In this document: positions 51,146-56,853 of the stretch, piece after piece
Layout of the letters: the number at the start of each line of letters is the position of its first letter
How positions within the stretch are numbered: position 1 is the stretch's first letter
DNA from: Lachnospiraceae bacterium 3-1
GTDB lineage: Bacteria > Bacillota > Clostridia > Lachnospirales > Lachnospiraceae
Length of the DNA stretch: 64,000 nucleotides
Assembly: GCA_000403255.2 (NCBI GenBank)
Contig: KE159594.1
Location: 62,001-126,000, forward strand
Reading direction: 5' to 3'
Made by a program: the position numbers and the translations under genes
Notes under the pieces: model-generated
Databases searched by the model: none
The model's input: only the letters and a program-made list of their open reading frames with translations
What the model was told of the DNA's origin: nothing

Positions 51146-52264
51146 TTAAACCGCCACTCGCTCCAACCGTTCTCCCATTCTACTTAAAATTTCATTACTG
51201 ATGGTTCCGGCCCATCCAGCCATATCCTCTGCGCGGATTTCTATCTCCCCAGATTTTCCAATCAAAACAGCCGCGTCTCCAGGCTTTACCTGTTCCATTC
51301 CACTAAAATCCACAAGCATCTGATCCATACAGATACGTCCAATGATGGGAGCAATTTTCCCATTGCAAAGGACCTGACCCCGATTTGACAAATTACGCGG
51401 AATACCGTCTGCATATCCAATAGACAAAATGCCAATTTTGTGATTTCTATTTGCGCAATATGCAAGCCCATACCCAGCGCTTTCTCCCTGATACAGCATT
51501 TTCACACTCTCCACCCTGGCTTTTAAGGATAATACTGGTTTTAGCTTGACAGATGCATTTACCTTATCCTGCTTACCACTTAAAATCCCATATAAAGCAA
51601 TTCCGGCCCTGGCATAATCAAAGCATAATTCAGAATAATTTAAAATACCATAGCTTCCCTGTAAATGTTGTTTAAATCCATGGATTCCCCTTCGGTGAAG
51701 CTCTTCTACCACATACTCAAAATGGTGAATTTGTTCCAGCGTATACGCTTGCTCTCTGGCATCTTTGCCGTCTGACACACACAAATGAGAATAAATTCCA
51801 GTCACTGTTAGATTCGGCATCTGAAATATTTTTACAATTTCTTCCACATTTTCCCACCATTCTCCCAGGCGGTGCATTCCTGTATCAATGCCTACATGAA
51901 CCGTGAATTTTCGCCCGTCATTTTGTAGTTCCCTTGCATAATTTCCATCCACCACCGTTTGGATCAAATGGTATGTAATCAAGTCTTCAAATTGCTCTGG
52001 ATGCGTGTATGAAAGCACAAGAATTTCTCCAGTAATTCCCTCCTGACGCAGCTTTATGCCCTCAGCAGCAGAGGCCACACAAAAGCTTTGGATTCCCTGC
52101 TCCTGTAATGCCTTAGAAATCAACGCCGCTCCATGTCCATAAGCATTTGCTTTTACGGCCGGCATCAAAGCGCATCCTGATGGAAGTAACGAACGGAACT
52201 CCTCTACATTATGTTTCAAATGTTCTATATTAAGCTCAATCCATGCACGTCCTTTTTGATACAT
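51146..52264 (-). CDS. vanT: VanT-type serine/alanine racemase, racemase domain only
   Basis: 372 residues, PLP alanine-racemase fold. PLP Lys38 (MPAVKANAYGHG) and the second catalytic region ICMDQMLVDFSG; GILSIGYADGIPRNLSNRG is VanT-like. At the C-terminus TISNEILSR puts Asn357 where alanine racemases have Tyr (TINYE); in VanT enzymes Asn at this place favours serine (family knowledge). It lies 11 nt after an acyltransferase-like membrane protein and a vanG-type ligase, so D-Ser supply for a modified peptidoglycan is likely. In known vanG clusters the membrane and racemase domains are one protein. It could also serve as a plain alanine racemase. Confidence 0.85.
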   Translation of the reverse strand: MYQKGRAWIELNIEHLKHNVEEFRSLLPSGCALMPAVKANAYGHGAALISKALQEQGIQSFCVASAAEGIKLRQEGITGEILVLSYTHPEQFEDLITYHLIQTVVDGNYARELQNDGRKFTVHVGIDTGMHRLGEWWENVEEIVKIFQMPNLTVTGIYSHLCVSDGKDAREQAYTLEQIHHFEYVVEELHRRGIHGFKQHLQGSYGILNYSELCFDYARAGIALYGILSGKQDKVNASVKLKPVLSLKARVESVKMLYQGESAGYGLAYCANRNHKIGILSIGYADGIPRNLSNRGQVLCNGKIAPIIGRICMDQMLVDFSGMEQVKPGDAAVLIGKSGEIEIRAEDMAGWAGTISNEILSRMGERLERVAV

Positions 52265-52275
52265 CCTCTCACCTC

Positions 52276-53310
52276 TCATGTTCTGTTTTTCATAAATTCC
52301 ATCATTTTTGCTGTTACAAAAGAAAGAACCAACGACACTGCACAAACTGTCAAATAATGAACCAGCGACTGCTTTACAAACAAGTCTGTCATTTTCACTG
52401 CATCTGCTGCCCCACGCACCAGAATAATACTAATTGGATGGATGATATAAACACACATGGACAAATCCCTGGCCAATGCAAAGGAAGTCACATCCATAGA
52501 AAGCAACAGTTCAAAGAGGAAAAACATCACAGGAATTAACAAAAGATACATGCTGTTATGCTTCTGCCATTCCATCGTAAAGGTTAGAAATCCTTCTCCC
52601 AACATACCTGCCATAGATATCAGCAATCCAAGGGCTGCTTTGCGTGTAACCATTTCCAACTTCCCATTGGCAATCACAACACCCATCCACAAGTAAATTG
52701 GTGCAAAGAAAATCCCATTCCTGGTATAAGAGCTAATACCAAAAATTCCTTCATAAAAGGTCTTAAGAACCGGAGCCTGACTGACTAGCTGATAATAACT
52801 GTCTCCTGCTGTTCCCACCACATAAAGGAGAAAAGTAATCAAAGATATGGTCAGAGGGCTAAAACAATGCATCATCCCAATTAACAGCAAGCACCCCATC
52901 AAAACTGCTGGAAGATACCAAAGATGATAAAAGGTTCCATCAAAAAATATTTCCTTTAACCACTCCCATGGACTATCACTCCACTGTTTCGCATAAATTT
53001 TCACTGGCAAATACAAAAGAATTGCTGCACCATATAAAATAATTGTTTTTTGTAGAAACTTTCTCACTTTTAAGGATGCCGTTTCCGCTTTATTTGAAGT
53101 GCGGCCCTGAAATTTCTGATAGGGCGCCAACACAAAAAAACCTGTTACCATCAAAAAGAACGGAACTCCCACCCTTCCCATACAGTAAGTCACAAGAAAA
53201 TCCCCTGTCTCACTGAAAGACTGCAGTGGTCCTGTGTGAATTGCAACAATAAACAATGCCGCAACCAAGCGAAACTGATCAATCGCCCCATAATTTTTTC
53301 TCTGTCTCAT
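52276..53310 (-). CDS. Acyltransferase_3-like membrane protein, VanT membrane domain equivalent
   Basis: 344 residues with about ten membrane helices. N-terminus IDQFRLVAALFIVAIHTGPL and VGVPFFLMVTGFFVLAPYQ match the Acyltransferase_3 fold that forms the N-terminal half of VanT. It is encoded directly between the vanG-type ligase and the separate racemase, with 31 and 11 nt gaps. Together the two proteins (344 plus 372) equal the length of one VanT. In VanT this part is thought to import L-Ser. Here it is a separate protein. No catalytic function can be demonstrated from sequence. Confidence 0.85.
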   Translation of the reverse strand: MRQRKNYGAIDQFRLVAALFIVAIHTGPLQSFSETGDFLVTYCMGRVGVPFFLMVTGFFVLAPYQKFQGRTSNKAETASLKVRKFLQKTIILYGAAILLYLPVKIYAKQWSDSPWEWLKEIFFDGTFYHLWYLPAVLMGCLLLIGMMHCFSPLTISLITFLLYVVGTAGDSYYQLVSQAPVLKTFYEGIFGISSYTRNGIFFAPIYLWMGVVIANGKLEMVTRKAALGLLISMAGMLGEGFLTFTMEWQKHNSMYLLLIPVMFFLFELLLSMDVTSFALARDLSMCVYIIHPISIILVRGAADAVKMTDLFVKQSLVHYLTVCAVSLVLSFVTAKMMEFMKNRT

Positions 53311-53341
53311 GATTCCTCCACTTCATACATCAAGCGCCCTC

Positions 53342-54391
53342 CTACAATTCTAACAGTCTGATCAAAAGCTCTTCAAAAGGAATTCCGGCCTCCTTCATCA
53401 TATTGGGATAGCGGCTGTGGGAAGTAAAGCCGGGAATCGTATTTACCTCATTAAAATAAATTTCTCCCTTTGGTGTTAGAAACATATCAACCCTTGCAAA
53501 ATGGCTGCACCTAAGGGATCGGTAAATCACCTTGGCTGTCTCCTGTATTTCCTTTGCTTTTTCAGGGGAAATCCTGGCAGGAACATGGATTTTTGAGGAT
53601 TTCAGCGTATACTTTTCTGTATAATCAAAAAATCCTTCTGACAATTCAATTTCATCTACCACGCCTGTCATCAATTCTTCTTTTCCTAGCACTGCGCAAC
53701 CCACTTCAAATCCTTCTATCATCTCTTCCAAAATCACATAAGAGTCATATTCAAATGCATGCTCTACTGCGTTTTGCAAGTCCTCTACCTTTTCCACTCT
53801 GGTAATCCCGAAAGATGAGCCTGCCCGCAAAGGCTTTACAAAAAGTGGATATCCCAGTTCTCTTCCCCAGATTCTTAGCTGCATAACATTCATTTCTGCT
53901 TCCGAAATAGTATAAGATTTTGGTACTTTTACACCGCATTCCCCAGCAAGCCGATGGGCCGTCTCTTTATCCATGCAAATAGCAGAGCTCATGGTATTGC
54001 AGCCAATCAAAGGTATCTCCGCAAGCTCCAACACCCCTTGCACGGTTCCGTCCTCCCCATTTTTCCCATGTAAAATGGGCAAAGCCCCGTCTAAGGAAAT
54101 AGTTTCGCTCCCCTGTGCTTTCAGCAAAATAATTCCATGAAGTTCCTTATCTGGCGAAACTACAACTGACACACATGTCTCTTCGCTGTACCAATTGTCG
54201 GAAGCTATATGTTCCGGTTCTCCCTGATAAAGATACCATTTACCATCTCTGGTAATTCCAATTAAAATCGGCTCATACCTTCTGATATCCATATGGGTAA
54301 TCACTGCATAAGCTGATTGCAGGGACACCTCATACTCACTGGAGCATCCTCCAAATAAAATTGCAATTTTTTTTCTGTATCCTTTTTCCAT
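53342..54391 (-). CDS. vanG: VanG-type D-alanine--D-serine ligase
   Basis: 349 residues, ATP-grasp fold. LFGGCSSEYEVSLQSAYAV, ILHGKNGEDGTVQG, VKPLRAGSSFGIT, and metal-binding FNEVNTIPGFTSHSRYP. The omega-loop is EKYTLKSSKI (Glu259-Lys260-Tyr261), as in VanC/VanE/VanG; Ddl enzymes read differently and D-lactate ligases have EKG-type loops. So D-Ala-D-Ser is the likely product, lowering vancomycin affinity. It leads a three-gene set with the VanT-like pair. VanXY is absent here, so whether it confers resistance is open; it may be intrinsic. Site AAAGGAG. Confidence 0.88.
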   Translation of the reverse strand: MEKGYRKKIAILFGGCSSEYEVSLQSAYAVITHMDIRRYEPILIGITRDGKWYLYQGEPEHIASDNWYSEETCVSVVVSPDKELHGIILLKAQGSETISLDGALPILHGKNGEDGTVQGVLELAEIPLIGCNTMSSAICMDKETAHRLAGECGVKVPKSYTISEAEMNVMQLRIWGRELGYPLFVKPLRAGSSFGITRVEKVEDLQNAVEHAFEYDSYVILEEMIEGFEVGCAVLGKEELMTGVVDEIELSEGFFDYTEKYTLKSSKIHVPARISPEKAKEIQETAKVIYRSLRCSHFARVDMFLTPKGEIYFNEVNTIPGFTSHSRYPNMMKEAGIPFEELLIRLLEL

Positions 54392-54508
54392 AATTTTTTC
54401 TCCTTTTTCTGTATTTCAATTACCAAGTTATTGTCTTCTTTCATCTAACCGTTATCTTACCTTCTGCAAATGACAGACCAGTGACTTTTACATGACAAAA
54501 TTGTCATA

Positions 54509-54551
54509 AAAAATCCTGTTTTGTAAATTAATTTTACAAAACAGGATTTTT
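54509..54551. terminator. Bidirectional terminator downstream of the accessory module
   Basis: 19-bp stem (AAAAATCCTGTTTTGTAAA at 54509-54527, complement at 54533-54551). A- and T-tracts on both sides. It ends the minus-strand module and insulates the vanG-type operon. Confidence 0.88.
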
Positions 54552-54676
54552 AATTACTTTAATATTCTGTTGATTCTTTCCTAAGAAAATGTTAAAACTT
54601 CCATAACGAAACGTGGAATACCGACAAAATTAAAGGACTCTTTCTGTATGAAAGAGATAAAGTTTTATGCCATAAC

Positions 54677-55195
54677 CTACAAGCTATCATAGTTTTCCTT
54701 AATATAACATTCATAAACAGAATCTTTTAACTTTGTCCATTTCTTGCTGATGGAAACTTCAAAAGATTTTGAAATAAATCCATACTGCATTGATTTATTT
54801 ATTATTTCACTATATGTATCAAAAATTTGCTCTGTAATTTGTTTCGCCTCTCTCCAGAGTTCCTTACTAAAAAATCTTATAATTTCAACTTCCATCAAAC
54901 ATTCATGTGCATCAGACATCATCGTCTCTGAGAGCTCTTTCATTATATCTCCATTAACTCCCACTGACATCATTTTGTATAACTTATCATTAATATATCT
55001 TATTTTCTCATCTTCTATTTTCAATACTGTATCTATAATAGCTTGCTTATACAACTCACTAAATTTAAAACTTAACTTTTCCTTTTTTTGTTCTTCTCTA
55101 TCACTCTTAAAATTCCTAACAGTAACACAAATTGCCACAACCGCACAAATTGCTGCTATTGCATTAGATATACTTCCCAATATACTCCAAGCCAT
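54677..55195 (-). CDS. Membrane-anchored protein of unknown function, third gene of STAS/GHKL module
   Basis: 172 residues. One N-terminal membrane helix (about residues 4-24, ILGSISNAIAAICAVVAICV), then a long, charged, helical cytosolic part (KSDREEQKKEKLSFKFSELY, ELSETMMSDAHECLMEVEII). Not recognised. Start at the ATG at 55195 with GGGGGGA, 19 nt after the DUF4325 stop. Its place at the end of an ATPase/STAS operon and single membrane anchor would fit an effector that acts at the membrane, but that is only a hypothesis. DNA is more AT-rich than the flanks. Confidence 0.7.
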   Translation of the reverse strand: MAWSILGSISNAIAAICAVVAICVTVRNFKSDREEQKKEKLSFKFSELYKQAIIDTVLKIEDEKIRYINDKLYKMMSVGVNGDIMKELSETMMSDAHECLMEVEIIRFFSKELWREAKQITEQIFDTYSEIINKSMQYGFISKSFEVSISKKWTKLKDSVYECYIKENYDSL

Positions 55196-55214
55196 TTTGT
55201 GTCCCCCCAATACC

Positions 55215-55535
55215 TCAGCTTAGCCCCCGCATAACATAATCAAAATCATTCTCTATATTCTTCTTCAAAGTGTCGTTTAATTCAGTCCCGTCAGGATATT
55301 TAAAAACATACTTTTGCCGGAATTCATGCCCCATGCTCCTAATACTTGTTTCAAACATTCCACCAAAAAAAGAAGGATTCACGCCCCACGTATCCTCCGG
55401 CAATAAAACTGTAATTTGCCCATTTTTTTCCAATTTATCAAGCTCTAATTCTTTTCTTGCTATGACCCCCATATCCCTGTCCGTAAATATCCTTGCACCT
55501 GCCTCCTTGTACTTTCCAAGATCTATACTATTCAT
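55215..55535 (-). CDS. DUF4325 STAS-like protein
   Basis: 106 residues. The text RIFTDRDMGVIARKELELDK, NGQITVLLPEDTWGVNPSFFGGMF and DFDYVMRGLS fits DUF4325, a small STAS-like family usually found beside histidine-kinase-like ATPases. The start overlaps the ATPase stop by 8 nt, with AAGGAG, so the two proteins are made in a coupled way. STAS proteins switch GHKL ATPases by binding or being phosphorylated (family knowledge), and this pair may work like an anti-sigma/anti-anti-sigma switch. No membrane segment. Confidence 0.78.
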   Translation of the reverse strand: MNSIDLGKYKEAGARIFTDRDMGVIARKELELDKLEKNGQITVLLPEDTWGVNPSFFGGMFETSIRSMGHEFRQKYVFKYPDGTELNDTLKKNIENDFDYVMRGLS

Positions 55536-56853
55536 GCTTTCTTTCTCCTTTTTCTTTTTGAATATAGCGTTTATCCAAATAAAATCTTAATGAAATTACT
55601 GTCCCAGGAAAATTCTCTTCTAATTTTCGAACATTCGCTTCATCTGGCGGTTTATAAATATTATTTTCCTCATTAAACGCAATAATTTTCTTTTTTCCAG
55701 TTCCAAATACTGGATCATTCTTAAATTCTTTTGCCTTCATTCTATATGAACCACCAAACTTAATATACGTCCTACCTGATATAATTGTCATTTCAGGCAT
55801 CTGCCCATCGTCACACTTTCCCATTAAATTTAAATTTTCTATTAAGCTTACTGTTCCTGTCCCTCTGGTTTCATATCCCTCTATGTTCTTATCTCTTAAT
55901 CGGCTTATTCCTTCCTGTAATGCAAGAACAGTGCATACCATTTCTTCATCCCAATTAAAAGATAAAAATTGATCGTGCCTCTCTAAAAAATATTCTAACC
56001 TTTCTCTCGTTTCTTTACTGGAATCATACTTTAACCCTTCGTAAATAGTCTTGCCCAAATTCAGAAAAAGTAATTGCATTTCTCCATAAGGTTTACTAGA
56101 ATTATCTTCATAATGACCCTGCGTATACCATGTTGCCTGCTCTCCGCCGTGAATCTCACAATTATCAAGAACTTCTCCTAGCAAAGTCGCCATAAGCAAA
56201 ATACCTTCATCTTTCAATTTCATTCCCTGATGTATGAGACATTTATTAAAATAATCCGTTAACCTAGTTGCAATTTTTCCTGACTTCTTTTTTTCTTCAC
56301 CAAAACCACCTGACACTGTCTCAAATTTTTCAACATTTGCTCCATCATACTCAAATTCATACTTTGCATTTAAATGATACAACAATCCGCTTTCCAACAA
56401 TACATCTCTTACCATTGGATTCTTTGGAATTGCCCCAGCTAAAGCCAATTTATTTCTCTTTCTTCTATGTTTCATAATAACAAAAAGAATGATATCCATA
56501 ATCGTACTGGCTGAAAGTCCCAAAAACTCACACTTTGAATAATCAAAGTTTATCTTTTTCACGCATTCAACTTTTCCAATAGTATATAATTTTCTTAATG
56601 ACCGAATGGTCTCATCTGGCCGTTCAGAAATAGAAAATCTCTCAGGAATTTCTATCAGTAATTCTCCTTCCTGAATATGAAAATCTGACAATGCAAAATT
56701 TTCTTTTTCTAAATGTGCCATCACTTTTTGGTAATCCGCAACAAAACTCTTCTTTTTCATAGTCTCTTTCCATACACTAGATTTACTCCGATTTTCTTTA
56801 GGAATAAGTAATGTTCTAAATAAAACATCATGATATCCATACGTCTTCGACAT
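55528..56853 (-). CDS. STAS-like plus GHKL-type ATPase protein
   Basis: 441 residues. Residues about 90-170 look STAS-like (KINFDYSKCEFLGLSASTIM). From about 215 a GHKL ATPase follows: N-box LLGEVLDNCEIHGG (Glu, Asn, His), degenerate G1 FLNLGKTI (Asp replaced by Asn), and G2 YETRGTGTVSLIENLN. C-terminal part after 360 is unassigned. No HisKA domain and no membrane helix, so it is not a normal sensor kinase. It leads the operon with DUF4325 and a membrane protein. The start has no clear ribosome site. Locus next to an IS4-type remnant suggests acquisition. Confidence 0.8.
   Translation of the reverse strand: MSKTYGYHDVLFRTLLIPKENRSKSSVWKETMKKKSFVADYQKVMAHLEKENFALSDFHIQEGELLIEIPERFSISERPDETIRSLRKLYTIGKVECVKKINFDYSKCEFLGLSASTIMDIILFVIMKHRRKRNKLALAGAIPKNPMVRDVLLESGLLYHLNAKYEFEYDGANVEKFETVSGGFGEEKKKSGKIATRLTDYFNKCLIHQGMKLKDEGILLMATLLGEVLDNCEIHGGEQATWYTQGHYEDNSSKPYGEMQLLFLNLGKTIYEGLKYDSSKETRERLEYFLERHDQFLSFNWDEEMVCTVLALQEGISRLRDKNIEGYETRGTGTVSLIENLNLMGKCDDGQMPEMTIISGRTYIKFGGSYRMKAKEFKNDPVFGTGKKKIIAFNEENNIYKPPDEANVRKLEENFPGTVISLRFYLDKRYIQKEKGERKHE

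Follow-up and report, generated by a model that had tools for sequence, protein, structure and literature searches.

What does a VanG-type locus do in a bacterium which lacks the VanXY peptidase? The presence of VanG-type genes is commonly taken to mean vancomycin resistance, and we asked this question for three genes of Lachnospiraceae bacterium 3-1 located in a window of 64,000 nucleotides (assembly GCA_000403255.2, contig KE159594.1, positions 62,001 to 126,000 of the forward strand). The genes are open, lie in tandem on the minus strand of the window (54391–51146) and encode, in this order, a VanG-type ligase, the membrane half of VanT and the racemase half of VanT. We interpret them, with a probability of roughly two in three, as a chromosomal VanG-type module belonging to the core of its genus, in which D-Ala-D-Ala is not removed and which is expressed via a Bce-type regulator instead of, or beside, VanR.

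A VanG-type ligase with a split VanT

The ligase (349 amino acids, 53342..54391, minus strand) passed the NCBIfam model of VanG (NF000091) with 551.7 bits at a cut-off of 495; three broad D-Ala-D-Ala subfamily models were also passed, and of the remaining models shown, those for D-Ala-D-Ser and D-Ala-D-Lac ligases gave scores below their cut-offs. VanG of Enterococcus faecalis (4FU0, E 3e-126) is its closest entry in the PDB. The EKYTLKSSKI omega-loop and the FTSHSRYPN ending, from which a first-pass annotation had recognised the enzyme type, are both present and have the same letters in 4FU0, and the omega-loop pattern EKYTLK[ST]S.I was found in 27/27 ligases of the genus. These features point to a VanG-type D-Ala:D-Ser ligase with a predicted preference for D-serine. 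The closest ligase locus belongs to an uncultured Lachnospiraceae (L012, 83% identity); Petralouisia muris (L014), Lachnospiraceae bacterium A2 (L015) and Eubacterium sp. 14-2 (L022), with 76 to 81% identity, are among the nearest named loci. Here and below, G, C and L numbers denote genomes, contigs and loci, G000 being the window genome.

The membrane half of VanT (344 amino acids, 52276..53310, minus strand) starts after a gap of 31 nt and belongs to the Acyl_transf_3 family (PF01757, E 1.8e-24). Its scores for vanT-CELN (NF033132, 269.7 bits over profile positions 3-327) and vanT-L-mem (NF000033, 176.3 bits) are below the cut-offs. The racemase half (372 amino acids, 51146..52264, minus strand) passed the model "VanT catalytic subunit" (NF033131) with 563.4 bits at a cut-off of 460; its top-ranking PDB entry is VanTG (4ECL). 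It likely starts at the ATG at 52264, 12 nt past the stop of the membrane gene; the mechanically called open reading frame (ORF) begins at the TTG at 52345. The three-gene layout with VanT halves of 344 and 372 residues, as initially annotated, thus stands. The lysine binding pyridoxal phosphate (PLP) is retained in 70/70 aligned racemase sequences, and all 70 carry Asn in the column of the alanine racemase Tyr, which is present in the genome's own Alr. From the VanTG literature, we take this Asn to be a mark of serine racemases, and L-serine uptake is presumably the role of the membrane half.

Two separate ORFs for VanT were found in 26/26 assessable loci of the genus, none of which encodes a single fused protein. 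In the wider ligase set, VanT is split in 55 and fused in 19 of 74 rows, with at least six changes on the tree. A split VanT is already known, as NCBIfam holds models for VanT-L membrane, VanT-L catalytic and VanT-G catalytic subunits. In all 75 aligned membrane halves an Arg and a His are separated by ten residues; this pair presumably corresponds to the catalytic Arg/His of acyltransferase-3 proteins, and a simple transporter would have no need for it. One locus outside the genus (L086:7074-8183) is reduced to two genes, with the racemase directly following VanG and no membrane half.

The statement that no D,D-peptidase is adjacent was borne out. No VanY/VanXY motif was detected at the window locus, and neither PF02557 nor PF01427 had a match in the whole genome at E values up to 0.001, in a draft assembly with an estimated completeness of 96.75%; relocation of VanXY to another site in the genome was thereby rejected. 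The first-pass annotation had proposed looking for further ddl and alr genes, and both exist in the genome: the ddl (G000:C23:247968-248996) is of the housekeeping kind, and the alr (G000:C12) is canonical. The D-Ala-D-Ser pathway would therefore be an additional one.

A Bce-type operator in front of vanG

A 59-bp stretch located 115 to 57 bp before the vanG ATG (54448..54506, minus strand) contains a Bce-type operator/promoter. Its 37-bp core (54506-54470) matched the operator pattern TGACNNNNTTGTCATNNNAAAGTCACNNNNNTGTCAT with zero mismatches; the pattern comprises GTCA three times at a spacing of 11 bp, the first within an inverted repeat. Behind the core, GGTAAGATA at 54461-54453 is a possible -10 element. 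With up to three mismatches, the operator was found in 28/29 genomes of the genus and before vanG in 26/27 genomes with VanG, the sole exception being G011 with its divergent VanG. Specificity was judged by a reversed-pattern control, which gave no match in the 29 genus genomes and none in 200 genomes of the family; a shuffle control of the corresponding matrix is weak, as the window site is itself part of that matrix.

The same operator occurs at another, non-vanG locus in 16 genomes of the genus, including G007, which is devoid of VanG. All of the 15/16 sites inspected precede an ABC operon encoding an ATPase of 227–245 and a permease of 916–977 amino acids, and 14 of these 15 are located just after a kinase gene; a response regulator ahead of the kinase was seen in L242 and L246. 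Twelve further kinase stretches were scanned for operator sites only, irrespective of ABC genes, and ten have an operator-matrix site just downstream of the kinase, the exceptions being G002 and the C6 copy of G020. A Bce-like kinase was detected in 27/29 genomes; the two without it are G016 and G011, the latter being devoid of the operator as well. The window genome itself carries this operator type twice, before vanG (G000:C24:116470) and before its own Bce-like ABC operon (C23:25467).

Beyond the genus, a loosened pattern covering both forms of the operator was applied to 200 family genomes from 199 genera. Allowing at most one mismatch, it occurred in 14 of them, the window genome and G022 as well as 12 from other genera. 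In 12/12 of the latter an ABC ATPase gene follows 79 to 311 bp downstream; a response regulator and a kinase lie upstream in nine of the 12 stretches read, and vanG is present in none. As all operators of other genera front ABC genes, the element apparently belongs to a Bce-like module and is found also at vanG in this genus. No such operator was seen in 48 distinct regions upstream of vanG outside the genus (best matrix score −6.8), where only L082 scored slightly above its own shuffles. Because its operator fronts Bce-like ABC operons elsewhere in the family, vanG expression would be raised through a Bce-like regulator, and a response regulator of this type probably acts on vanG at this candidate site.

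Directly upstream of the operator lies a terminator-like hairpin with a T-run (54509..54551, minus strand; -21.1 kcal/mol, z -9.1), and none of 200 shuffles was equally stable. It is preceded by a conserved element, TTTCTTAGGAAAGAATCAACAGAATATTAAAG (54557..54588, minus strand), and a related core was found upstream of vanG in 13 of the 27 VanG loci of the genus scanned. Judged by its likeness, seen by eye, to the sequence upstream of vanR, the element is possibly an old VanR site; hairpin and TCTTAGGAAA element together (54509-54588) are ordered in such a way that they would insulate the vanG promoter.

At one site the operator precedes a different cassette. In G026, which lacks VanG, it is located 105 bp before vanH, and a vanHAX-like cluster (L177, G026:C1:3285640-3298644) takes the place of VanG behind it, the only such case among the congeners. 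This cluster comprises a vanH-like gene and a D-Ala-D-Lac-like ligase, both below cut-offs, and VanX over the cut-off. An ORF on the opposite strand of L177 resembles a transposase that we take to be of the IS110 type. In the window, three ORFs of 441, 106 and 177 amino acids immediately upstream of the module (54677-56853) have no Pfam match, and their cluster numbers are absent from every other locus row.

VanRS in trans

The first-pass annotation had also reported that no regulator is adjacent, which holds for the locus and not for the genome: VanS and VanR are encoded at C24:178451–180422, outside the window and 62 kb upstream of vanG on the same contig and strand. Complete loss of the regulator from the genome was consequently rejected. 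VanR (363 bits, cut-off 350) passed its model, and VanR and VanS show 90% and 78% identity, respectively, to a pair located beside vanG in a congener. In 16 genomes of the genus, a VanS orthologue with 74–100% identity to that of G028 is located upstream of vanG at a distance of no more than 7 kb; in nine others it lies farther away or on another contig. VanR adjoins VanS except in cut stretches (G005 and one view of G024). No orthologue in this identity range was found in G006, G007, G011 and G026, as judged for G006, G007 and G026 solely by kinase length and model span; G011 has a VanRS pair with 44 and 55% identity. An ORF with a SocA/Panacea domain (L193:3263-4270) stands beside the displaced VanRS of the window genome, and one similar by eye sits between VanRS and vanG in G014.

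The retention of an intact VanRS pair 62 kb away suggests a more conventional explanation, namely ordinary VanG-type glycopeptide resistance controlled by VanR in trans, in which the displacement of VanRS and the lack of VanXY merely lower the resistance level. A precedent exists in Clostridium acidurici, where VanG genes are reported to be apart from VanRS and resistance to be low-level, though VanXY is present (PMC3519856). The promoter argues for a different route: the best match of the window to the published VanRG 12-mer is 9/12, so that canonical VanRG boxes are not supported as the operator of this locus. Furthermore, G006 and G026 carry the Bce-type operator, and in both the only VanS-model match listed looks paralogous by length and model span. 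A VanRG 12-mer with at least 11/12 matches was found in 3/26 genus loci (0.7 expected from shuffles) and in 11/51 outside loci (1.1 expected); the low share in the genus does not on its own reach significance. We consider control by VanR with ordinary resistance unlikely, while it is the competitor to be taken most seriously.

A resident module under constraint

VanG scores over the cut-off in 27/29 genomes of the genus, the exceptions being G007 and G026. In the window, mutY (51115–50024) comes next after the racemase gene, and as mutY follows within 2.2 kb downstream of the module in 15/27 VanG genomes, the locus looks resident. Together with the separate ddl and alr, these counts lend good support to the earlier suggestion of an intrinsic D-Ala-D-Ser pathway. 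Comparison of the window genome with its sister G021, which also lacks vanXY, gave ratios of nonsynonymous to synonymous substitution rates (dN/dS) of 0.115 for the ligase, 0.138 for the membrane half, 0.074 for the racemase and 0.108 for mutY, calculated with an experimental Biopython routine at dS values of 0.77 to 0.92. The best reading of these values is a functional module kept under purifying selection.

These observations bear on two further explanations. D-serine might mainly serve purposes besides precursor ends, for example release or wall editing, in agreement with the lack of a detected enzyme depleting D-Ala-D-Ala and with a split racemase which could function apart from the ligase. 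Since the ligase is under constraint and precedes the membrane and racemase genes in 26/26 genus loci with readable downstream genes, we regard such a use as improbable. Alternatively, the locus could be a decaying, non-functional resistance determinant heading for loss, as VanXY is gone, VanRS is displaced and two congeners have no VanG over the cut-off. Decay is very improbable in view of dN/dS values which are low and similar to that of mutY between two sisters both without vanXY, of the PLP Lys and the Asn conserved throughout the racemases, and of an operator free of mismatches.

Repeated loss of vanXY

Among the 27 VanG genomes of the genus, an adjacent vanXY is intact in nine, broken in one (G025) and missing in 16; one locus (G005) ends with its contig. 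Where present in these loci, vanXY sits between the ligase and the membrane gene. Together with outside loci, for which the best 80 of 360 were taken and which thus lean to close relatives, an intact vanXY is missing from 33/76 scored loci.

Remnants of the gene were searched in the gaps, and E-values refer to this small set of sequences. Two are clear: G025 has lost the front part and has a broken frame, and L058, a locus outside the genus, retains the back half without the catalytic motif. Two are short. The last 14 codons are found in G016 (71% identity, E 0.002), counted because they coincide with the exact vanXY end including the stop, and the first codons in G018, the weakest case (protein E 0.24), counted because the DNA is nearly the same as the vanXY start of its sister G024. 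Possible remnants in G011 (E 0.002, 33% over 46 amino acids, mid-protein), G003 (E 0.46) and G014 (E 0.26) were not counted. The 31-nt gap of the window locus contains no remnant. In L164 (G021), the ligase-membrane gap of 191 nt resembles, by eye, direct repeats of about 57 nt. Matches to PF02557 away from vanG are strong in the congeners G022, G004 and G015 and mostly weak otherwise; short pieces of PF01427 were found in G027 and G023.

Distances between XY proteins correlate with those between ligases (r 0.92 over 43 loci; 0.82 over nine genus loci), as do distances of ligases and racemases (r 0.88 over 70; 0.90 over 24 in the genus); the value for ligase and MutY is 0.60 (14 genomes). The XY state changes at least seven times on the genus tree, from which G005, G026 and G028 were excluded. 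For the wider tree of ligases, with 76 loci, the count is 20, obtained with the contig-end loci L084 and L052 as well as G005, G026 and the Ddl outgroup set aside. A single clade of the 15 genus rows without XY among 24 (G011 also excluded) was rejected with p-AU 9e-50, for a group picked after the trait was known. As the trees are unrooted, the number of changes gives no direction. It is the remnants, the fixed gene position and the co-inheritance of XY and ligase which identify the change as a loss, and because loci without XY do not form one clade and remnants occur in other loci, the loss appears to be repeated. The absence of VanXY thus looks derived, having been lost many times. Three-gene loci are common, as the 33 of 76 illustrate, and the first-pass annotation had proposed an ancestor-like form older than the mobile vanG cluster; given two clear and two short remnants in four other loci, co-inheritance at a fixed position and repeated changes of state, this proposal is hardly credible.

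Proposed function

The membrane half probably imports L-serine, which the racemase half would convert into D-serine, and VanG would link D-Ala with D-Ser. MurF could then use D-Ala-D-Ser beside the D-Ala-D-Ala of the housekeeping Ddl. Mixed precursors are expected because no match to the VanX or VanY families was found, so that D-Ala-D-Ala would not be specifically removed. In the lineage of the window genome vanXY was presumably lost, and VanRS seems to have parted from the operon to its present distance of 62 kb. Stress by lipid-II-directed peptides most likely raises expression; the signal would pass through a response regulator of the Bce-like type, whether VanR takes part or not.

In E. 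faecalis, resistance is reported to depend strictly on VanG, VanXYG and VanTG (PMC4405338). As all three are reportedly needed there, strong vancomycin resistance is not expected here, and the three-gene form may confer none. For Blautia producta, another member of the Lachnospiraceae, the accessible part of a report lists scattered van annotations including vanTG, does not mention a vanG ligase and describes the organism as vancomycin-sensitive (PMC8146736).

The strict requirement for VanXYG in E. faecalis is the first of several points that weigh against a three-gene module driven by a Bce-type regulator. VanS of the window genome scores 388.7 bits, just below the cut-off of 400. VanR could still act on vanG, since VanRS has stayed well conserved and, in 16 genomes, is no more than 7 kb away from vanG. 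G016, whose genome is 88% complete, has the operator at vanG and no detected Bce-like kinase. Two positions (T vs C) set the operators before vanG apart from most of those before ABC genes, which could reflect two different regulators. The share of VanRG 12-mers does not differ significantly between the genus and outside loci (Fisher p 0.36). In view of the two operator classes and the conservation of VanRS, vanG may be governed by the Bce-like regulator, by VanR or by both.

A bolder version of the Bce-driven module can be put forward tentatively: a Bce-type regulon may have captured a D-Ala-D-Ser cassette, which lipid-II-binding peptides rather than glycopeptides would induce together with the detoxifying ABC transporter. 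Partial replacement of D-Ala-D-Ala would be enough for this role, which could explain why VanXY was repeatedly discarded, and the regulatory slot might accept different cassettes. This version is possible, and we would not rely on it.

Comparison with known systems

A gut Lachnospiraceae genus apparently keeps the D-Ser-making part of the vanG system, repeatedly drops a part on which resistance in E. faecalis is reported to depend, and has the module behind the operator of another stress system. It is a case in which the rewiring of a resistance cassette for a different role can be tested, bears on the origin of resistance cassettes from commensal physiology and calls for caution, as vanG or vanT hits in metagenomes are not enough to call vancomycin resistance. 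No description of this module or its operator was found among the listed titles and abstract openings of the open-licence literature.

A VanT divided into a membrane protein and a catalytic protein is common to the window locus and the VanL-type cluster. The VanL cluster contains VanXY, and the ligase and racemase of the window score as VanG-type and below the VanL cut-offs. A similar description exists for Clostridium innocuum, whose intrinsic D-Ala-D-Ser resistance, as reported by David in 2004, reportedly involves D-Ser precursors that are likewise intrinsic and little if any D,D-peptidase activity. In Clostridioides difficile and C. acidurici VanT is a single protein.

According to the respective reports, C. 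difficile (PMC11326576) and C. acidurici (PMC3519856) have a clostridial VanG like that of the window, but both possess vanXY; in C. acidurici, VanRS is apart from the resistance genes as in the window genome (PMC3519856). With the vanG operon of E. faecalis, the window locus shares the ligase and racemase families, the omega-loop, the racemase Asn and the order ligase-(XY)-T (PMC4405338). It differs in that VanXY is missing, VanT is split, VanURS is not adjacent and the locus is a chromosomal resident of the genus; its promoter has a Bce-type operator instead of the VanRG 12-mer array (PMC4405338). In Bce/Psd/Aps-type detoxification modules, an operator is reported to lie before ABC genes, and its consensus AnnTTACnAnnnnGTnAG resembles the window site with, by eye, about one core mismatch (PMC10858260). 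Whereas the operator there serves ABC genes, in the genus studied here the same operator also fronts an operon for cell-wall precursors.

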